From positions 1 to 30,042 of IMG/VR virus record IMGVR_UViG_3300048070_000030: a stretch of 30,042 bases of DNA. The stretch is one strand, 5' to 3'. The DNA comes from a virus. Below are positions 468 to 12,213 of the stretch, one piece after another. Under the pieces are notes generated by a model. That model was not told the DNA's origin. It worked only from the letters and a program-made list of their open reading frames with translations, and did not search any database. A program made the translations under genes and the position numbers. The stretch's first letter is position 1. Each line of letters opens with the position of its first letter.

Positions 468-2576
468 TCAGTCGTATGATTTTTTGAAGTAGCAGGGCTG
501 GTTGTAAGATTCGGTAGCGCCAATGACATCAGCGTCGAGGAGGTCGTTGATAATGTTCTCGCGTTCGTGCCGTTTGATGTTCTTTGTATTTCGAGTCAGG
601 ATCGATTGCGGCATCATCCCGTGCTTCAGACAGAGCCGCTGGTTCGAGGTCATCTGTTGATTGATGTATTTCTGTGGCTCGCTGATGACGGCTTCAATTC
701 GTAACGCGTGCTTCTCGACGAAACCTTCGCCACGTCCAACAAATTGCAGCTTACTTGTCCAGCACTCATTACTCCATGACACGAGTCTGATTGCCCAGCG
801 TGCGATGTCAGGGTTAATCACTGGACGCTTTGCATTCACACCGACAGCTGCAACACCTGCCAAGATGAGCGCGTTTTGATTTGCGCGTGCCCACGTTTCA
901 TCTACTCGTGACCGACGTCGTGCCACTTCTTCAAATTCGTCGAAGCGCTGATACGTGTCGGTGTCTTCGAATACTACTTCAGTGAAATCTCCCTGTGGCT
1001 CGTGCGCGATCAGTTCACGTGCGTGCTTCTTGAGTGCTGACGGAAAGACTTTTTTGCGGCGCATGTTACGAGGTGGGAAGTAGTCGCCCGTGTCCATCAG
1101 GATGAATCGATTAACGAAGCCGGTTTCTTTTGCAGTGCCTGTGATAGCTTCCATGAGTGCGTCGGGTTGTGCAGTTGCGAGGAGAGTGATGAAAGGATTT
1201 TCGAGCGGTGGGATTGCTTGTCTACGACCGGGAACACCTGCGACAAATTTATTGGCTGCTCCGTAGAGTGAGATGACGTGTGTCAGTACGGTGAAGTCTT
1301 GGCCGCTCGTGTTCTTGACGTTTGCCATGTACCTTGCAGCTTCGTCCCATAGCCAACACGCCATGCCTTCTTCTGCAAGTATGTCCAGCATCGCATAATA
1401 AGATTGGAAACCCCGGAAGGTGATTTCATCTAGCCCTGTCTTACGTGTGAACTCAGAGACTGCTGTGAGCACAGAATCCTTGCCGCCACCAGTCTGCGCC
1501 GTGACCATGAGGTAAGGTTGCAGTGGTGTGTCCCAGTGTTGCACCACGTAATGATTACTGCTCGCCAGTGCAGTGCACATGATGCCAGATGCGAGAGCGA
1601 AGATTGGCTGATCAAGATACTGCGATCCGCGTGCCCATTCTGCAATCTCACCAACCAGTCCCGGCACTTCGAGCAACTGCTCATCGAACTCGATGGCTTT
1701 GGGCTCAGCACGCTTTTCTTCTGTCAGTATGGGGGGTGTGACGATAAGGCCTTCGTGTGCACCGCTCTGAGTCCAGCGTCGTAATGCTGTGACGACCGGC
1801 ATCGACATCCAGTCCTGTAGCGTTGTGAATCCTTTCGTGCGATCACCTGCATCATGCTTCTCAATCGTGTTGATGACAGCGTTGGTTCGGTCGTCGAGTT
1901 CGTCCTCTTCTTCTTGGATAACTGTGAGCACAGCACCCATGACTTTCTTGATCTTCTTCGCAGGCCATCTCTGATGACACAGTGCACCCGTGCACGCGTG
2001 TACATAGTCGTGACGTGATCCTGCCTGTGGGTAGTAATGGAGGAAGACAGCTGCGACTGCGATCTCATCGCACAGTCGTTCGAGGTCGAGCTTGGTCAAG
2101 CTCATGAATTCGTCAGGACCATCGTGCAAGAAGTACATGCCGCCTTCGGGATGACGTGACGGTGGGATGACTGACTGGGATCCAGTGCTGCGGATTTCGA
2201 CGATGGTGCCCAGCTCTTGGACCTGCCACTTCTTGGTCTTTGAGCCTGCTACCCGGTAGATGTAATGCGAGTATTCCTTGTTGCTGCGACCGTAAGTGAA
2301 CGTCTCCGGGAGGAGGTACTCGGCCACCCAGATTGCCTCGTCCATGTCCAGATCGATGTCGGTGGCATGCGCAGATGGCTCCCCCCAGAGAGCCCCGATG
2401 TTGTCCCCGATGCGGAAGGCTCCGGCCTCCAGATCCTCCTCGACGAGGCGCAAATGCGGCCAGTTCTTGCTTTTCGGCCTTTTGGACCTACTCTGGAGCG
2501 GTACGGTGTATACATCTCTGGCTAACCAGTCTAATGCCGTTTGCGTTGGATCGAAGCCTGATTTATTCTGTGTCAT
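468..2576 (-). CDS. Primase-polymerase (AEP/PrimPol) fused to a P-loop helicase domain
   Basis: This 702-residue protein likely makes primers and unwinds DNA at the phage fork. The N-terminal AEP/PrimPol domain (about 10-175) shows the metal-binding DIDLDMD at 73-79, SHYIY at 103-107, and the R-x-G...PPSRH stretch at 129-142. The C-terminal half (about 300-560) looks like a DUF3987-type ATPase. It has Walker A TAQTGGGKDS at 359-368, Walker B CWLWDEA at 407-413, a sensor-like TLLATAQPD at 464-472 and a candidate arginine finger R490. It starts at ATG 2576, with only a weak ACGAG before it. It is divergent from the polymerase gene, and a possible promoter lies at 2681-2709. The family-level call is firm, but helicase activity is inferred from the motifs. 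Confidence 0.85.
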   Translation of the reverse strand: MTQNKSGFDPTQTALDWLARDVYTVPLQSRSKRPKSKNWPHLRLVEEDLEAGAFRIGDNIGALWGEPSAHATDIDLDMDEAIWVAEYLLPETFTYGRSNKEYSHYIYRVAGSKTKKWQVQELGTIVEIRSTGSQSVIPPSRHPEGGMYFLHDGPDEFMSLTKLDLERLCDEIAVAAVFLHYYPQAGSRHDYVHACTGALCHQRWPAKKIKKVMGAVLTVIQEEEDELDDRTNAVINTIEKHDAGDRTKGFTTLQDWMSMPVVTALRRWTQSGAHEGLIVTPPILTEEKRAEPKAIEFDEQLLEVPGLVGEIAEWARGSQYLDQPIFALASGIMCTALASSNHYVVQHWDTPLQPYLMVTAQTGGGKDSVLTAVSEFTRKTGLDEITFRGFQSYYAMLDILAEEGMACWLWDEAARYMANVKNTSGQDFTVLTHVISLYGAANKFVAGVPGRRQAIPPLENPFITLLATAQPDALMEAITGTAKETGFVNRFILMDTGDYFPPRNMRRKKVFPSALKKHARELIAHEPQGDFTEVVFEDTDTYQRFDEFEEVARRRSRVDETWARANQNALILAGVAAVGVNAKRPVINPDIARWAIRLVSWSNECWTSKLQFVGRGEGFVEKHALRIEAVISEPQKYINQQMTSNQRLCLKHGMMPQSILTRNTKNIKRHERENIINDLLDADVIGATESYNQPCYFKKSYD

Positions 2577-2609
2577 CTCGTTGCTTGCTTTTGCTCTTGT
2601 TACGGGACC

Positions 2610-2645
2610 GGGGGTGGGGCGATCTGTTGGGACTGTCCCACCCCC
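2610..2645. repeat. GC-rich inverted repeat between the divergent primase and polymerase genes
   Basis: GGGGGTGGG (2610-2618) and CCCACCCCC (2637-2645) are perfect 9-base complementary arms around an 18-base loop. The loop holds GGGAC-T-GTCCC, so a competing smaller hairpin can form. No T-run follows on either strand, so it is not a standard intrinsic terminator. It lies between two divergent genes, in the leader of the minus-strand primase. It could be an operator, an mRNA structure or an origin element; the sequence does not decide. Confidence 0.5.
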
Positions 2646-2680
2646 AAACTAAATGAGTGTTTATTGCCGTGGGACGGACC

Positions 2681-2709
2681 ATCCTACAGCGCAACCGGAG
2701 CACTGACAA
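2681..2709 (-). promoter_or_regulatory. Tentative promoter for the primase-helicase gene
   Basis: Reading the minus strand, TTGTCA (2704-2709) and TAGGAT (2681-2686) are spaced by 17 bases. They match 5 of 6 and 4 of 6 consensus positions. The predicted start would give the primase an mRNA leader of roughly 100 bases containing the inverted repeat at 2610-2645. It resembles neither of the two stronger promoters. I found no convincing plus-strand promoter for the polymerase in the same gap. Confidence 0.35.
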
Positions 2710-2732
2710 ATGGTCTTGATAGTCACAGGCTC

Positions 2733-5237
2733 ATGCCGAGCCTGAATCCTAATTGCGAACAATGCGGCCTACACGCCACCGCTGCCACTGTATGTATGCG
2801 GGGCGAGGGTTCGCAAGCCCCGGACGACATTAAAGTCTTTGTTGTGGGGGAAGCTCCCGGACCTGCAGAAGATAAACGTGGCGCACCCTTCCTCGGGGAG
2901 GCTGGCAAGATTCTGCGCAACGAACTCCATAAGAACAAGCTCCTCGATCAAACTTACATCACCAATTTGGTCAAGTGCGCGCCCCCAAACGGAAGAGCCC
3001 CTACGGCAGCAGAGATCAAAGCCTGTCGCCCCTACCTTGAGGAAGAGATCGCGCGCTTAGCACCCAGTTACGTCATCACTGCCGGTGTGACGCCCACGAA
3101 GACGCTTTTCCGTGGCAAGGCGAAGATCACTCAGTTCCACGGAGAGATCATAGAGAATCCCAAAGTCAGTTACGTCGGGATGCCCATCTTTCATCCGGCG
3201 TATACGCTTCGCGATCCGTCGAAGCTCCCTGCTCTTCAAGATGACATCGGTCGGCTCGCTCGACTCATGAAGGGCGGCTTGCGCAACGACACAGTCGAGT
3301 GGTCGGTTGTCAGAAAGGGAAACCTCGACACCTTCATAGCTGAGTTTGAGGAGGCAACCGAATTCGCATACGACTGCGAGACATCGGGGCTCTTCCCATT
3401 CGCAGAAGATGGGTACGTCACTGCAATTGCAATTAGTCTCGCTCATCGGACGTGGGTGATTCCGGGATTTATGCACCCTGATTACCAGCGATTTTCGCAT
3501 AGTCCCTTTGCGCACGGAAATGCTCTTCGGAAACTGATGCAGCTTCTGTTTTTTATTGCTCATCGCGACAAGAAAAAGACCTATGCCCAGAACGGGAAAT
3601 TCGATAACAAGTGGATGCGTACCCAGTTCGGTGGCAGCTTCCGCCTGTCGTTCGACGTCATGCTCGCACACCACGTCCTGAATGAGAACCTTGCGCACGA
3701 TTTGACCAGCCTGTGCCGCACCTACCTCGACGAACCAGAGTACGACATCTCCCTCGCCGAGAAGCAGGGCAAGTCTGAAAAGCCCATGCGCAACTACAAG
3801 TACTGCGCACAGGATGCCACGTATACCTTCCGGCTGGGCAAACTGTTCGAAGAGATGTTGCGCGAGTTACCTGAGCTGCACCGTCTCTTCTGGAAGCTCA
3901 CGATGCCGGGTGTGCGTGCGATGGAAGATGCCGAAATGGAAGGGCTCACCATCAACGAAGAGGCGCGCAAAGAAGTGGGTTTGCAGTTGTTGTCAGAGAT
4001 GATCACGCTCAAGCACGAGCTGAATGACATGGCGGGCTACGAAGTGAACTGGAACAGCCCACCGCAGATCGGCAAATTGCTGTACGACGAGTTGGGATAC
4101 AAGTGCGCGATCAAAACACCGAAAGGTAAACCGTCAACATCAGAAGAGGCACTGCTCAGTCTGGCAGGGAAACCTGTTGTCAAGAAACTGCTCGACTATC
4201 GCGGCGCATCGAAGATGTTCAACACCTACATCAAGGGATGGCAACAGTATCGTGTCGGCGACAAATATCACTTCGACTACAAGATCCACGGAACAGTTAC
4301 GGGACGCTATTCATCGCCTCTGCACCCGATCCCACGTGACGGGAAGATCCGCAACCTCGTTGATGCCCCACCGGGCTGGACATTCGTTGCGATGGATCTC
4401 GCCACCGCTGAGATGCGTATTGCTGCACACCTCAGCAAAGACCCAGAGATGCGTCGGTGCTTCAACAACGGCATAGACGTTCACTGGCGCACCCTGATCG
4501 AGAATCTTGCCATCACCACCGAAGGCGAGTGGACGGAGCGAGTATTCCGAACTGCCGAAGCGCTCACCGGTAAAGCGCACGCCTATAGCAAGTGCCTCGA
4601 AATCATGATGGATGCAGGTCCGAAAGCGTGCATCAAGATCGATCCGAAATGGTACGAGGGACGCACCCGTGCCAAGGCCATCAACTTCGGCTTCATCTAC
4701 GGCATGTACGAGAACAAATTCATCCAGCAAGCCACGACCGACTATGGGTGGACGCCGACCTATCAGGAGGCCAAGAACGCCCGCACAGCCTATTTCAGGC
4801 TCTACAGTCGGCTGTCGGGGTGGCACAAGCGCACGAAACGTCTGGCGCGCTCTGACGGCTTTATACGCTGCCTGACAGGCCGCTTGAGGCGTCTCCCCGG
4901 CATTCAGGCCAAGGACAAGTGGACCCGCATGGAAAACGAGCGTCAAGCCGTCAACAGCCCCGTGCAGGGTCTGATCGGCGACTACAAGGTCATGGTGCTG
5001 ATCGAGATCCACCAGACATTCAAACGCAGTCAGGTACGGCTCGTCGGCGAACACCACGACGCTGTGCTGACGTTGGTCAAGAACGAATGCATCGACGAGT
5101 GCGTACCAAAGATGCTGCAAATAGCAGAGTCACCGAAACTACTTAAAACGTTCAAGATAAACCTGAGTGTTCCGATGGAAGGCGAGGCCGAGTTGGGACC
5201 ATGGGGCAAAGGAGAAAAATACGATGTCGCCGCTTGA
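2733..5237 (+). CDS. Uracil-DNA glycosylase fused to family A DNA polymerase
   Basis: This is the replicative polymerase, 834 residues from ATG 2733. The ORF stays open to a TTG at 2664, but that has no ribosome site and would lie over a minus-strand promoter candidate. Residues 1-180 form a family 4-type uracil-DNA glycosylase: GEAPG with E40, N78 in TNLVKC, HPAY with H154, and four Fe-S cysteines (C8, C11, C82, C98). A 3'-5' exonuclease follows with D214/E216, D291 and Y357/D361. The polymerase has motif A D555...E560-M-R, motif B R644-K648-F652-Y656-G, and motif C H775-D776-A777. There is no 5' nuclease domain. About 35 extra residues sit between motifs A and B (near 590-640). The last codons overlap the next gene by 14 bases. 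All catalytic residues except the motif C glutamate look intact. Confidence 0.93.
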   Translation: MPSLNPNCEQCGLHATAATVCMRGEGSQAPDDIKVFVVGEAPGPAEDKRGAPFLGEAGKILRNELHKNKLLDQTYITNLVKCAPPNGRAPTAAEIKACRPYLEEEIARLAPSYVITAGVTPTKTLFRGKAKITQFHGEIIENPKVSYVGMPIFHPAYTLRDPSKLPALQDDIGRLARLMKGGLRNDTVEWSVVRKGNLDTFIAEFEEATEFAYDCETSGLFPFAEDGYVTAIAISLAHRTWVIPGFMHPDYQRFSHSPFAHGNALRKLMQLLFFIAHRDKKKTYAQNGKFDNKWMRTQFGGSFRLSFDVMLAHHVLNENLAHDLTSLCRTYLDEPEYDISLAEKQGKSEKPMRNYKYCAQDATYTFRLGKLFEEMLRELPELHRLFWKLTMPGVRAMEDAEMEGLTINEEARKEVGLQLLSEMITLKHELNDMAGYEVNWNSPPQIGKLLYDELGYKCAIKTPKGKPSTSEEALLSLAGKPVVKKLLDYRGASKMFNTYIKGWQQYRVGDKYHFDYKIHGTVTGRYSSPLHPIPRDGKIRNLVDAPPGWTFVAMDLATAEMRIAAHLSKDPEMRRCFNNGIDVHWRTLIENLAITTEGEWTERVFRTAEALTGKAHAYSKCLEIMMDAGPKACIKIDPKWYEGRTRAKAINFGFIYGMYENKFIQQATTDYGWTPTYQEAKNARTAYFRLYSRLSGWHKRTKRLARSDGFIRCLTGRLRRLPGIQAKDKWTRMENERQAVNSPVQGLIGDYKVMVLIEIHQTFKRSQVRLVGEHHDAVLTLVKNECIDECVPKMLQIAESPKLLKTFKINLSVPMEGEAELGPWGKGEKYDVAA

Positions 5238-5409
5238 AGCAATGATGAACGAGCAACAAAAGCTCGTGAACAAAGGGAATCAGATCGATCAGATTCAGTG
5301 CGCTGCGCTGATGCTGATTGCCAGCAATCTCGGTGACATAAAAGCCGAACTCGAACGCGTCAACGAGAACTTGATGAACATAGAGGTGAATACTCGTGGA
5401 AACAATTAG
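5224..5409 (+). CDS. Small protein between polymerase and nuclease, function unknown
   Basis: A 61-residue protein starts at ATG 5224 after GGAGAAAAA and overlaps the polymerase stop by 14 bases. It probably relies on translational coupling. Residues 8-50 are likely a single long amphipathic helix (LGDIKAELERVNENL), so it may be a small coiled-coil accessory factor. I recognise no family. Its place between the polymerase and the nuclease suggests a role in replication, but nothing in the sequence proves that. Its end overlaps the nuclease GTG start by 14 bases. Confidence 0.7.
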   Translation: MSPLEAMMNEQQKLVNKGNQIDQIQCAALMLIASNLGDIKAELERVNENLMNIEVNTRGNN

Positions 5410-6400
5410 CTTCACCGAAGTGGGGGCGTATCGACGCTGCCCAAAGGCATGGGAATACAAGTACAAGCAACGGTTGAAGCGCAAGCTCAAGCACGTTCGA
5501 TTGCTGCGGGGCGAGATCCTGCACGAGATGCTCAACGCATACATCAACACCAAGATCCATGGTCTGAAATACGACGGCGCGGATCCATGGGACGTGCTCG
5601 AAACGTATGCCCAAGAGTACAGCAACTATTTCGAGGCAGAGAAAGAACTGCACGGTGATGTTATCGGTGACTGCGGCAAGATCTTCGAGGGCTACCTGCG
5701 CAAGTACCGGCGTGACACCCTGAAGTACGAAGCCACCGAACTGATGATCGAGCTGGACCTGAGCAAGCTGGGCAGTGGTGCACTCAACGTCAAGTTCATC
5801 GGTTTCATCGATAAGATCGCCGTGGATCCACAGAAGCGTCGTTGGGTGATGGATCATAAATTCGTCAAGTCCATCCCCACAGCTGACGACCGCTTCAGTG
5901 AGCTGCAGTTGCTCCTCTACGTCTGGGCCTACGGCATGCAGAACCCGAAGGAGACGCTCGACGGCGTCTGCTGGGACTACGGCAGGGCTAAGTCGCCCAC
6001 GGAGCCTGAGGTGCTCAAGAACGGCTCCCTGAGTCAACGGAAGAACCTCGACTGCGATGTCTACACCTACCGCAATGCCATCCGTAAACAGGGCTTGGTA
6101 GAAGCGGACTATGCGGATATGCTGTCGCACCTCCAAGGCAAAGAGGACTCGTTTTTCGAACGCGTATTTTTGCCAACACCTAACACCGACATGATCGTCG
6201 AAGTGGTCAATGACTTTCTGCAAACGACAGCTGAGATTCAGGCCAAGCGCGAAGACGGACGTTGCTCGCGCAGCATGTCGCCGTTCAACTGCGCGACGTG
6301 CGAATTCCGCCCACTGTGCGAAGCCGAAGTACGCGGTCTCGATGCCGACTTCGTGAAAAAGTCCGAATACGAACCGCGAGGAGAAAGAAATGGCTCTTAA
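5396..6400 (+). CDS. PD-(D/E)XK nuclease, Cas4/RecB-like, with Fe-S cysteines
   Basis: This 334-residue protein starts at GTG 5396 with AGAGGTG upstream. It shows the RecB/Cas4 nuclease pattern: H43 (LHEML), D139 in GFIDK, D153-H-K155 in the catalytic DxK strand, and Q171/Y175 in the QLLLYVWAY helix. One N-terminal cysteine (C15, in RRCPKAWEY) and a C-terminal cluster (C299, C302, C308) form the four-cysteine site that holds a 4Fe-4S cluster in AddB and Cas4. It likely resects DNA ends for recombination or replication, working with the ATPase and SSB encoded next. It is not evidence of CRISPR, since there is no cas gene or array. It overlaps the following gene by 11 bases. Confidence 0.9.
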   Translation: METISFTEVGAYRRCPKAWEYKYKQRLKRKLKHVRLLRGEILHEMLNAYINTKIHGLKYDGADPWDVLETYAQEYSNYFEAEKELHGDVIGDCGKIFEGYLRKYRRDTLKYEATELMIELDLSKLGSGALNVKFIGFIDKIAVDPQKRRWVMDHKFVKSIPTADDRFSELQLLLYVWAYGMQNPKETLDGVCWDYGRAKSPTEPEVLKNGSLSQRKNLDCDVYTYRNAIRKQGLVEADYADMLSHLQGKEDSFFERVFLPTPNTDMIVEVVNDFLQTTAEIQAKREDGRCSRSMSPFNCATCEFRPLCEAEVRGLDADFVKKSEYEPRGERNGS

Positions 6401-7259
6401 AAAACGACCTACCACGAAGAAGAAAAAAATGCTTGGCAAGAAACGGGTCAAGAAGGCAGCACAGCCTGTTGCACCGACGATATCTATCCTCGACAAGATC
6501 CAGCCAGTGAGCGAGCTGGCAGAGAATCTCGTCATGCTCGTGTACGGTCGATCCGGCACAGGCAAGACGCACTTTGGTTCGACGTTCCCTCGACCGTGCC
6601 TGTTCATTGACGTCAACGAGAAGGGTCTCGACACGATTGCCCAAGAAGAGAACATCGATGTCGCACGCGTCACCGACTGGCAAGAGATGGACGAGCTGCT
6701 CTGGGCACTCAAAGACGGCATGAAGTACGAGAGCGTCATCATCGATCAGGTGACCAATCTACAAGATCTCGGCATGCGCGAAGTGCTACGAAAGCAGCGC
6801 AAGGGATCCGACGAAACATTCAGCCAGCGAAACTGGGGTCAGCTCTCCGGCATGCTGAAACAATTCATTACTGACTTCCGCGACCTGTCGGAGCAGTACA
6901 ACCTTCTGATGATTGCGCACGAGCGCATCGATGAACCCGGCGACGAAGATGCAGAGGAACGCATCGAGCCGAACATCGGCGCACGCGTGATGCCATCTGT
7001 CGGCACCTTCCTCGATGGTGCAGTCGATGCTATCGGCTGTACGTTCATCAAAGAGCGGTGGGAAACCGAAGGAAGGGAGGAGGTGCGACACGTGGACTAC
7101 TGCATGCGAATCGGTCCACACGCATATTATTCAACGAAGATTCGCAGACCGGTGTCCGCTGGTCCGATTCCGGAGCTGATCGTCAACCCGACGTACCAGA
7201 AGATCAAGAATCTAACCACGGGCAAACAACCACAACGTAAGGTAAGGAGAAAGAAATAA
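6390..7259 (+). CDS. Sak4-like RecA-fold ATPase
   Basis: This 289-residue protein starts at ATG 6390 behind GAGGAGAAAGAA. It has a basic N-terminus (residues 4-22), Walker A YGRSGTGKT at 52-60, Walker B SVIIDQ at 115-120 and a conserved NLLMIAHE strand at 171-178. This matches the phage nucleotide-binding family that includes Sak4. Those proteins are single-domain RecA-like ATPases that stimulate single-strand annealing together with a phage SSB. The gene sits between a Cas4-like nuclease and an SSB-like gene, which fits a nuclease, annealing ATPase and SSB recombination set. It overlaps the next gene by one base (TAATG). Activity is inferred from the family. Confidence 0.85.
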   Translation: MALKKRPTTKKKKMLGKKRVKKAAQPVAPTISILDKIQPVSELAENLVMLVYGRSGTGKTHFGSTFPRPCLFIDVNEKGLDTIAQEENIDVARVTDWQEMDELLWALKDGMKYESVIIDQVTNLQDLGMREVLRKQRKGSDETFSQRNWGQLSGMLKQFITDFRDLSEQYNLLMIAHERIDEPGDEDAEERIEPNIGARVMPSVGTFLDGAVDAIGCTFIKERWETEGREEVRHVDYCMRIGPHAYYSTKIRRPVSAGPIPELIVNPTYQKIKNLTTGKQPQRKVRRKK

Positions 7260-8053
7260 TGGCAACGCGCAAAAAAAGGCCTGCCAAAAAGGCAGCGCCA
7301 GCAAAGGCGTCACGCGGGCGTCGGGGCAAGAACGTCGTCTCAGTCGATTTCACAGATGTCGAGTCTGGGGGTGGAATGCCCACGCCCGATGGCTACTACA
7401 TCGCTGAGATCTCGAAAGCAGAGCAGGAGGTCAGCCAGAGCGGCAACGACATGATCACTGTCGTGTGGAAGACCAACATCGGCTCCAGAGTGTACGACCG
7501 TTTCGTGCTGGTACCACAGTCACTGTGGGTACTGCGCACGGCACTGGAGTGCATGGGCTTCGACGTACCTGATGGCCCGATGGACTTCGACGTCGATGAT
7601 CTGGTCGGCAACTCTTGCGGCATCGAGATCACCAACGAAGAGTACGAAGAGAAGGACCAGCCTCGTGTGACCGGTTACCTGCCCTCTGAGGTTGCTGAGC
7701 AGTACATCGAAGAGTCAGGTGGCTCCGTCGAGGAAGACGAGGACGAGGAGGAGTACGAAGAAGAGGAGGACGAGCCGGAAGAGGAAGAAGAAGACGAAGC
7801 TGAAGAAGAAGAAGAGGCTCCAGCTCCCAAGAAGAAAGCGGCCAAGAAGAAAGCTCCGGCCAAGAAAAAAGCACCAGCTAAAAAGAAGGCCAAGAGCACG
7901 GCGCTGCGACCGGGTGCTCGCGTCATCTTCGGTGACGAAGACGGCGAAGAGTATCAGGGCGTGATTGAGGGCATCGAAGGCGACATGGCAATTGTCGTTG
8001 ACGATGAGGAAGGTGAGTGGGAGATTCCGCTGAGCGAGCTGCAGAAGGCGTGA
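7259..8053 (+). CDS. DUF669-like ssDNA-binding protein with acidic, Lys-rich and SH3-like C-terminal parts
   Basis: This 264-residue protein starts at ATG 7259 (AAGGAGA upstream). After a basic N-terminus (1-24), residues 27-140 resemble the DUF669 phage SSB family: PTPDGYY, SGNDMITVVW, SRVYDRFVL, LVGNSCGIEI. A run of almost only Glu and Asp follows at about 147-187, then a Lys/Ala/Pro stretch at 190-213, then a compact segment (215-264: RPGARVIFGDEDG, YQGVIEGIEGD) that looks like an SH3/KOW-type barrel. Bacterial SSBs use an acidic tail to recruit partners; here the acidic block is internal. Neighbours are the Sak4-like ATPase and the helicase. The SSB role is likely, while the SH3-like fold is my inference. 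Confidence 0.75.
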   Translation: MATRKKRPAKKAAPAKASRGRRGKNVVSVDFTDVESGGGMPTPDGYYIAEISKAEQEVSQSGNDMITVVWKTNIGSRVYDRFVLVPQSLWVLRTALECMGFDVPDGPMDFDVDDLVGNSCGIEITNEEYEEKDQPRVTGYLPSEVAEQYIEESGGSVEEDEDEEEYEEEEDEPEEEEEDEAEEEEEAPAPKKKAAKKKAPAKKKAPAKKKAKSTALRPGARVIFGDEDGEEYQGVIEGIEGDMAIVVDDEEGEWEIPLSELQKA

Positions 8054-9477
8054 TCCGGACTCAACTCCGTCCCTATCAGGAAGAGGCTGTCGCTGCGGCA
8101 CGTCCGCACGACGGCTTCTGCCTGTTTCCAGAGCAACGCACAGGGAAGTGCCTTGTCTCGCTCGCGATAGTCGATGAGCGCAAGCCCGATGTGTGCATCA
8201 TCATCTGTCCGAAGAAGGCAGTAAAAACGTGGGACGATGAGATCGACAAGCACCTCGATAACGATTGGGGTTGCGAGTTCTACATCATCACCTACCAAGA
8301 GCCAGTCAAAAATCTCGACCTGCGCAAGGAGTGGTACAAAGAAACACTGAAGTGGCAAAAAGAAGGCGTGAGCATCATGGTCATTGCCGACGAAGCGCAT
8401 TACATCAAGAAACCGGGAACAGCGCAGTCACGATTTGCGCGAACTCTGGCGAAGCGTGCGACATCCCGGCTCGCACTTACTGGCACGCCATTCGACAAAG
8501 GTTACGAACAGGTGTGGGCGATCTTCGACTTCATCGGTCATAAAGAGATCTTCGGCACCTACGAGAATTACAAAGAGCGATACGTCGTCTACAAGACGAT
8601 GGAGCGCAGAGATGGACGTCAGTACCCGGTGCTCGTCGGGTACCAACGCGAGGAAGAGATCCTCGAATACATTCACGATTACAGCTATCGCATCACGTTC
8701 AATGAAGCGCGCAAAGCCATGGGCAAAGATCCCGTGCGACTGCGCCGACGCAAGATACGGTTCAAGCTCACCCGTAAAGCGAGAGCGATCTATAACGAGC
8801 TAGAGTCAGATATGGAAACCACCATTGGCGAGCTAACAGTCGGGGCTCCGCTGCCTGTTACGTTGCCGCAAAAATTGCAGCAAGTCTGTGGTGGTTTCCT
8901 TCTACATCAGGAGCGTATTCCGGGACAGCGCAAGCGCACTCGAACAATCATCCCCTGCGGTACCGAGAAGCTCGACCGCATGATGGCATTGCTCTCCGGT
9001 TTTGGGCAGGAGCGCGCTGTCATCTGTTGTCGGTTCACGCACGAGATCGACGCCATTGCAGACAAGTTTGAAGAGTTCGGCTGGACGTACAAGATCATCG
9101 ACGGGCGCAACGAGTGGGATGGCGAATTCGACGTTGACTTCGTCATCCTGCAGGTGAAGAGCGGTTTGGGCTTCGACCTGTCGCAGGCGAATGCGTACAT
9201 TTTTTACAGTTGGGATTACAGCTGGATCACGTTCGATCAGTCACGTTTTCGCATCATGAACATGGAAACCACCAACTGGGTGTACTACTACTTCATGATG
9301 GCCGAAGACACCATTGAGGATGACTACTATGAAGCGGTTGCGAAGAAGAAAGATTTCGCAGAACTCGTCCTCGACCGGTACCGTAAAGAGAAGGTACAAG
9401 AGCGTCGAGGAACAGCTCGCAGGGGTGCGCGCCGAGTTCGGAAAACCAGTAGACTCGCGGAAGCGCCCTATAGGTGA
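8050..9477 (+). CDS. SNF2-type (SF2) DNA helicase
   Basis: I place the start at GTG 8050, whose GTGA overlaps the previous stop and which has AGAAGG upstream, giving 475 residues. GTG 8017, with GAGGAAGG before it, is also possible and adds 11 residues. LRPYQEEAV opens the first RecA lobe. Motif I is PEQRTGKC (K33), Ia is IICPKKAVKTW, II is DEAH at 114-117, III is ALTGTPF. The second lobe ends in QANAYIFYSWDYSW and FDQSRFRI, equivalent to motifs V and VI. This is the compact phage SNF2-like helicase without added domains. It likely remodels forks or branched DNA alongside the nuclease genes. Motif I departs from the usual GxGKT, but the lysine is kept. Confidence 0.88.
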   Translation: MIRTQLRPYQEEAVAAARPHDGFCLFPEQRTGKCLVSLAIVDERKPDVCIIICPKKAVKTWDDEIDKHLDNDWGCEFYIITYQEPVKNLDLRKEWYKETLKWQKEGVSIMVIADEAHYIKKPGTAQSRFARTLAKRATSRLALTGTPFDKGYEQVWAIFDFIGHKEIFGTYENYKERYVVYKTMERRDGRQYPVLVGYQREEEILEYIHDYSYRITFNEARKAMGKDPVRLRRRKIRFKLTRKARAIYNELESDMETTIGELTVGAPLPVTLPQKLQQVCGGFLLHQERIPGQRKRTRTIIPCGTEKLDRMMALLSGFGQERAVICCRFTHEIDAIADKFEEFGWTYKIIDGRNEWDGEFDVDFVILQVKSGLGFDLSQANAYIFYSWDYSWITFDQSRFRIMNMETTNWVYYYFMMAEDTIEDDYYEAVAKKKDFAELVLDRYRKEKVQERRGTARRGARRVRKTSRLAEAPYR

Positions 9478-11509: not shown

Positions 11510-11752
11510 ATGGCGTTTTTAAAACAACACCGAAAGGCAGAGCTGCAGATTGATGGCCGCTTGTTGATCGGCAAGTTCGCAGTAAGCCTGACCAATCAGG
11601 GCGACCGCGAAGTGATCATCGAGTTCATCAATGAGATGCGCAAGCAGCTCCGTGAATTTGATCCCAACAAAGGCAAAACGAAGAAAGTCGGAGCACGGAA
11701 ACGCTCGACGAAGAAAAAGGTCGGACGCAAAGTTGCCGCGAGACGACGGTGA
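11510..11752 (+). CDS. Small protein with basic histone-like tail, function unknown
   Basis: An 80-residue protein starts at ATG 11510, three bases after the previous stop, with AAGGAAAA upstream. Residues 1-48 look like a small alpha/beta unit (AELQIDGRLLIGKFAVSL, then a helix). Residues 52-80 are almost only Lys and Arg with Gly, Ala and Thr, a tail that should bind DNA or RNA. The family is unknown. It overlaps the following GTG start by four bases. Confidence 0.75.
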   Translation: MAFLKQHRKAELQIDGRLLIGKFAVSLTNQGDREVIIEFINEMRKQLREFDPNKGKTKKVGARKRSTKKKVGRKVAARRR

Positions 11753-12213
11753 TCATGGTCGATCTGGAAGGGACGCTGAGCGATCATTCGCATCGCTTGG
11801 CAACCCTTCTAGAGAGCGAAGAGAAATACCAGAAGCGTGATCGTACTCACTGGAAGGAGTACTACGCGGGTCTTATCAACGACGCCCCTCGACCACACAT
11901 CATGGCTCTCGTGCGCGAGTACATTGCGGACGACATTCGCCCACTCATTTACAGCACCCGCTTCATCAACAAGTACAAGCACGAAGAGGAGTGGCTGAAA
12001 CTGCACGGACTCTGGGACGAGGTAGATCTACTGCAGCGTGAACCCCACATGACTAAGATCAAGGGACCTGAACTGGTTGTGCAGTGGGTGCGTCAGTACG
12101 AACCCGTGCTTATCATCGACGACCGTGACGAAGTAAGGGACGCAGTACGTGCGCTCAACCTACCGACAGTAGCGTACGCACCGAATGCGTTCCTCAATCT
12201 GGAGGAGTTATGA
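11749..12213 (+). CDS. HAD-superfamily phosphatase-like protein
   Basis: This 154-residue protein starts at GTG 11749 (GTGA overlap) or ATG 11755. It has HAD motif I as VDLEGTLSD (D5, E7), motif II in LIYSTRF (Ser69/Thr70), a motif III lysine near residues 103-105, and motif IV as LIIDDRDE (D124, D125). Compact phage HADs of this kind resemble the 3'-phosphatase part of polynucleotide kinase or 5'-nucleotidases. The second aspartate of motif I, normally the general acid, is Glu here. The substrate cannot be told. The gene is coupled to the next by ATGA. Confidence 0.75.
   Translation: MIMVDLEGTLSDHSHRLATLLESEEKYQKRDRTHWKEYYAGLINDAPRPHIMALVREYIADDIRPLIYSTRFINKYKHEEEWLKLHGLWDEVDLLQREPHMTKIKGPELVVQWVRQYEPVLIIDDRDEVRDAVRALNLPTVAYAPNAFLNLEEL

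Follow-up and report, generated by a model that had tools for sequence, protein, structure and literature searches.

The window analysed here is the whole 30,042 nt stretch of the IMG/VR virus record IMGVR_UViG_3300048070_000030. On its plus strand, positions 2733 to 5237 are translated as one unbroken frame of 834 aa, which is open from a TTG at 2664 and for which the ATG at 2733 was taken as the start. The protein is a fusion of a uracil-DNA glycosylase (UDG), a 3'-5' exonuclease and a family-A DNA polymerase, and its gene sits in a phage replication module, with the virion genes on the opposite strand. The divergent neighbour on the minus strand encodes a Prim-Pol/DUF3987 primase-helicase (468..2576). 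Downstream on the plus strand lie a PD-(D/E)XK (Cas4-like) exonuclease (5396..6400), in an order common to phage relatives, a conserved Sak4-like ssDNA-annealing ATPase (6390..7259) and a SNF2/DEAD-type DNA helicase (8017..9477). Further along, at 11749-12213 (+), a small protein resembles the PNKP HAD phosphatase (2.1e-07), and is perhaps a DNA/RNA 3'-end repair enzyme.

Pfam placed three domains on the single 834-aa chain: UDG at residues 30-164 (1.4e-28), DNA_pol_A_exo1 at 197-376 (5.6e-19) and DNA_pol_A from residue 413 (1.4e-62). The UDG domain as a whole spans residues 1-182 (2733..3278, +), which scored 137.9 bits against the NCBIfam model TIGR00758 'UDG family 4' (cut-off 125.3). These residues were folded alone, polymerases having occupied the top rows of the fold search with the whole protein. 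The AF2 prediction (pLDDT 96.1) matched the UDG of Sulfolobus tokodaii (4zbx) with Z 26.5 and an rmsd of 1.9 Å over 178 residues, and that of Thermus thermophilus (1ui0) with Z 26.3. The predicted fold of residues 185-829 resembles Klenow/Bst/Taq polymerase I (Z 38.7). This part comprises the exonuclease domain (residues 197-376, 3321..3860, +; D214, E216, D291, Y357, D361) and the polymerase domain (residues 413-834, 3969..5234, +; D555, R644, K648, F652, D776; Z ~38 to Bst Pol I), assigned from Pfam and residue conservation; the catalytic residues expected of a family-A polymerase with proofreading are present. In the chain, the UDG domain precedes the proofreading exonuclease, in the slot that is occupied in cellular Pol I by a 5'-3' exonuclease.

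An earlier note on this DNA had proposed a family 4-type UDG joined in frame to an exonuclease-polymerase, and both the domain assignments and the structure prediction agree with it. A stop or separate genes between the two domains, the pattern that the note named as evidence against a fusion, was sought in the homologues. Their full-length frames run on with no stop between the domains, and none of them has UDG and polymerase as separate genes, which rules out a sequencing artefact as the source of the fusion; split genes or a frameshift were therefore rejected. The polymerase of ctLwi270 (MW202554.1, 1727-4364) is annotated as two ORFs with the UDG in the first; the ORFs lie ~150 bases apart, which may reflect an intron or a frameshift. 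Identity as UdgX was also rejected: motif 1 is GEAPG rather than GEQPG, KRRIH is absent from the sequence, and TIGR03914 gave 93.6 bits against a cut-off of 189.95.

The active site of the window's UDG domain can be followed along the plus strand. The sequence CEQC (2754..2765) supplies the predicted Fe-S ligands C8 and C11, and motif 1, GEAPGPAED (2847..2873), contains E40 and E46. The segment T77-N78-LVK-C82...C98 (2961..3026) carries the uracil-binding N78, the ligands C82 and C98, and G87 at the motif-3 position, and motif 2, HPAYT (3192..3206), contains H154. The family-4 motifs are thus all present (GEAPG with E40, N78, and H154-P155), with the four cysteines in CxxC...C...C spacing, and the trio E40, N78 and H154 and the cysteines all occupy the positions given in the earlier note. 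Among fused UDG domains with all four Fe-S cysteines, 84-89% share a fifth one close to the N-terminus, which in the window is Cys21 (2793-2795).

The same note called the domain a complete family-4 UDG. This holds for the trio and the cysteines, and is slightly overstated because the water-positioning Asn of motif 3 (N89 in T. thermophilus) is Gly87 in the window. The motif-3 Asn is a catalytic accessory and no requirement for family-4 membership; it was kept in 76 of the 81 homologues first scored with intact trio and cysteines. E40, N78, H154, E46 and F53 match residues whose mutation lowers the activity of T. thermophilus UDG. In that enzyme, k2/Km fell ~2500-fold in H155S, ~900-fold in E41Q, ~44-fold in N80A and ~7-fold in N89A (PMC5387724). 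With the trio and the Fe-S ligands in place, the window copy has most likely kept the ability to recognise and excise uracil. Excision is perhaps slower, as the motif-3 Asn is replaced by Gly; given the ~7-fold cost of N89A, the glycosylase may be weakened, not dead.

We assembled 187 non-redundant polymerases from IMG/VR, phage records and GTDB genomes. A UDG-fold domain precedes the exonuclease in 154 of them, and four lack any N-terminal domain. The remaining 29 have an N-terminal region with no confident UDG match; many of these come from bacterial genome records and probably represent cellular Pol I with its own 5'-3' exonuclease. PHROG 17 aligns over the whole window protein, and 184 phage-collection records align over >=80% of it, some with a diverged UDG remnant only. 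The search for the same fusion in polymerase collections, suggested in the earlier note, was therefore productive, and the note's description of the fusion as uncommon is at least overstated: besides the 154 homologues, it has been published for phage PaBG and its relatives, and a structure of the example from phage phiLo is solved. The UDG-exo-PolA fusion is already known, and the window adds one more member.

The conservation of the catalytic trio was scored on 153 homologues, with one incomplete sequence (L113) dropped and another (L165) scored allowing for an intein. The intein of L165 (IMGVR_UViG_3300043607_000009, 1849-6060) interrupts the UDG domain just before the Cys82 equivalent (..TVR/CVVGST...THN/CRPP..); its match to Pfam Intein_splicing (5.8e-06) is under the curated cut-off of that model. 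Trio and four cysteines were intact in 82/153 homologues. The trio was altered with the four cysteines kept in 38, both were altered in 26, and only the trio was kept in seven, so that the trio is altered in 64 of the 153 scorable homologues. One of the homologue scans used a pattern that includes N78 and C82 and so favours intact copies; a scan on polymerase motifs only found the trio intact in 23/54. Some clades hold a diverged UDG remnant lacking the cysteines and motifs. The exonuclease and polymerase catalytic residues of the same proteins are near-invariant, with D361, D555, K648 and D776 present in 154/154.

In the phylogeny of the polymerase region, the trio switched state 26 times, or 17 times after branches with support <0.95 were collapsed. 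Under the scoring before the correction for L165 and L113, the intact state changed 28 times, compared with an average of 51 changes when the labels were shuffled. The four nearest tree neighbours of the window comprise one intact copy (L003) and three with N78Q and H154D (L002, L024 and L026), the last of which also has E40A. In the altered group the pocket residues G39, E40, G43, E46, F53, N78, N87 and H154 all relax, whereas P42, G118, G137, P155 and D171 persist; the group for this comparison was selected on the four cysteines, whose retention there is a criterion. By analogy with the kinetics of one enzyme, we infer that activity has been lost in the altered homologues.

The altered UDG domains stay under purifying selection, with pairwise dN/dS of 0.02-0.25. 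In the altered relatives near the window, dN/dS is higher in the UDG than in the polymerase part by a factor of 1.3-3, and this weaker constraint also fits slow decay; in the PMBT14-like clade the two values are similar. The 82/153 homologues that keep trio and cysteines indicate that catalysis itself is selected in many lineages.

The best explanation for a glycosylase that has been repeatedly disarmed, yet kept under selection, is a role that needs no cutting. The reading that we favour, with modest confidence, is that the UDG domain is a fork-attached module for DNA binding or uracil sensing, in which glycosylase activity is optional. The conserved job would be to bind DNA beside the polymerase, and such binding may hold the enzyme on DNA, contact and read uracil, or both. 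Some lineages would have retained base excision as an option, and many would have given it up. Two points weigh against this reading: the selection for catalysis that the intact copies indicate, and the weaker constraint on the UDG part in the altered relatives near the window. As the excision residues are present in the window, cutting, sensing and holding may coexist there. The suggestion in the earlier note that the domain may sense and pause rather than cut is in line with this reading. That note also asked how a phage with such an enzyme avoids damaging its own template. For the many lineages that lost the catalytic residues and kept the domain, a partial answer is at hand; it does not extend to the lineages with intact residues.

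Replication-coupled repair would account for the domain differently: the fused UDG would excise uracil from template or nascent DNA, and altered copies would belong to phages that no longer need it. The equipment of the window copy speaks for this (trio, Fe-S ligands, E46 and F53, in a family-4 fold that matches uracil-excising enzymes at Z 26), as does the retention of trio and cysteines in 82/153 homologues. The genomes add a further point in its favour. In each of the 42 records with a match to PF03167, the only match is the fused copy, which leaves no other UDG for the task; a stand-alone UDG compensating for altered copies was likewise looked for, and none was present in the records searched. 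A role in fidelity has also been proposed by the authors of the PaBG study (PMC7412058). Against repair, the trio has been lost repeatedly while the domain was kept under purifying selection, and cutting uracil out of a template that is single-stranded would put an abasic block in the polymerase's path. Nor does the genetic setting help, as we found no phage dUTPase or ThyX that would limit uracil in the window's clade, and no thymidylate synthase in the clade's records other than the window; these records are fragments and may be incomplete, and the host may supply the enzymes. On balance we regard repair as an unlikely account.

In phages of other clades than the window's, the polymerase gene is often directly preceded by a divergent thymidylate synthase/pyrimidine hydroxymethylase gene. 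Varying sets of thymidylate synthase/hydroxymethylase, dCMP deaminase and thymidylate kinase genes occur upstream of the polymerase in L028, L029, L030, L038, L039, L040 and L052, and their gene content suggests that these phages may carry modified thymine. Loss of catalysis appeared to be tied to the thymidylate-synthase/hydroxymethylase genes in the raw comparison (p=0.0003). The median over phylogenetically independent pairs was p=1, however, and we therefore claim no link between thymine genes and an altered UDG.

Archaeal family-B polymerases stall at template uracil. A purely sensory role, in which the UDG pocket would capture uracil in the template before it reaches the active site and stall synthesis with no cutting, is consistent with the position of the domain on the polymerase and with the intact uracil pocket of the window; it was also the second alternative raised in the earlier note. 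In the altered homologues, however, relaxation extends over the entire pocket and takes in N78 and F53, which contact uracil, and the reading of uracil therefore cannot be the family-wide function. We consider a dedicated sensor improbable; lineages that retain the pocket, such as that of the window, could still sense uracil.

The UDG fold has also been joined to a second kind of polymerase. The Pol III alpha (family C) of phages hairong, B1VFA, RHEph10 and ANB28 carries a C-terminal UDG-fold domain, and E/N/H and the cysteines are absent from all four examples. The copies with this C-terminal fold are L051 (Pseudomonas phage hairong, 1567-4950) and L347-L349. DnaE with a C-terminal UDG domain was noted earlier in Yersinia and Salmonella strains (PMC3919608). 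The Pol III alpha fusion is independent of the PolA fusion.

This second fusion bears on whether the UDG domain might be a structural relic, packed against the polymerase and retained for folding only, with no DNA-directed role. Clades that hold only the diverged remnant are in keeping with a relic, and the 4/187 polymerases lacking any N-terminal domain indicate that the UDG domain is dispensable in principle. An independent fusion to another replicase is hard to square with it, as are the persistence of the Fe-S ligands in 38 catalytically altered copies and, in an old altered clade, a dN/dS that is no higher for the UDG than for the polymerase part. We therefore think a relic very improbable.

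Returning to the fork-attached module, we propose a broader reading more tentatively, at a little under an even chance: that the UDG fold was recruited at least twice onto phage replicases, at the N-terminus of PolA and the C-terminus of Pol III alpha, chiefly for non-catalytic holding of DNA, and that its activity was lost many times. If so, the window, in which the residues are present, and the three close relatives that lack them form a natural comparison of the domain's role. Whether a glycosylase fold serves as polymerase clamp or sensor is directly testable in these close relatives.

Several known systems can be set beside the window, which has the in-frame N-terminal UDG fold that defines phage UDG-exo-PolA fusions of the PaBG, phiLo and SPO1 kind. 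UDG, 3'-5' exonuclease and polymerase A were described in one chain in PaBG and its relatives, in all 11 members, in 2020; beyond that group, its authors saw no close relatives of the UDG (PMC7412058). The domain order of PaBG gp205 and the Lupandier jumbo phages is that of the window, which comes from a different lineage, and the accessible part of the paper reports no loss of the catalytic site in the group (PMC7412058). The polymerase of Thermus phage phiLo (PDB 9QHS, a structure solved 'with modified template' and released 2026-03-25) likewise combines a UDG with trio and four cysteines, a 3'-5' exonuclease and a family-A polymerase; it differs in its length of 1175 aa and its distant sequence, with a UDG domain at Z 17.2 and 22% identity to that of the window. 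Bacillus phage SPO1 gp31 also carries a UDG fold N-terminal on a family-A polymerase (83 bits), but its motif 1 reads QENP, N78 is replaced by Ser and the cysteines are absent; some type-4 UDG/UdgX entries in the PDB bear the name 'phage SPO1 DNA polymerase-related protein'. The family-4 UDG of T. thermophilus (1UI0) shares the fold, the equivalents E41/N80/H155 and the four Fe-S cysteines with the window domain; unlike it, the enzyme stands alone and has the motif-3 Asn89. The DnaE-UDG proteins (PMC3919608; hairong, RHEph10, B1VFA and ANB28) resemble the window in placing a UDG fold on a DNA polymerase, but that polymerase is of family C and the position C-terminal, and the four phage copies lack the catalytic residues and cysteines.

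Across the family, a repair fold has lost its catalytic residues again and again and yet stayed on a replicative polymerase, a pattern that may be compared with the processivity UDG of vaccinia virus. Vaccinia D4 is a family-1 UDG. It is a separate protein, joined through A20 to a family-B polymerase, and its likeness to the window, as a UDG fold linked to a viral replicative polymerase, is one of analogy. D4 acts as the processivity factor of its polymerase (PMC10253040), and the holding of DNA by the phage UDG domain would parallel that role.
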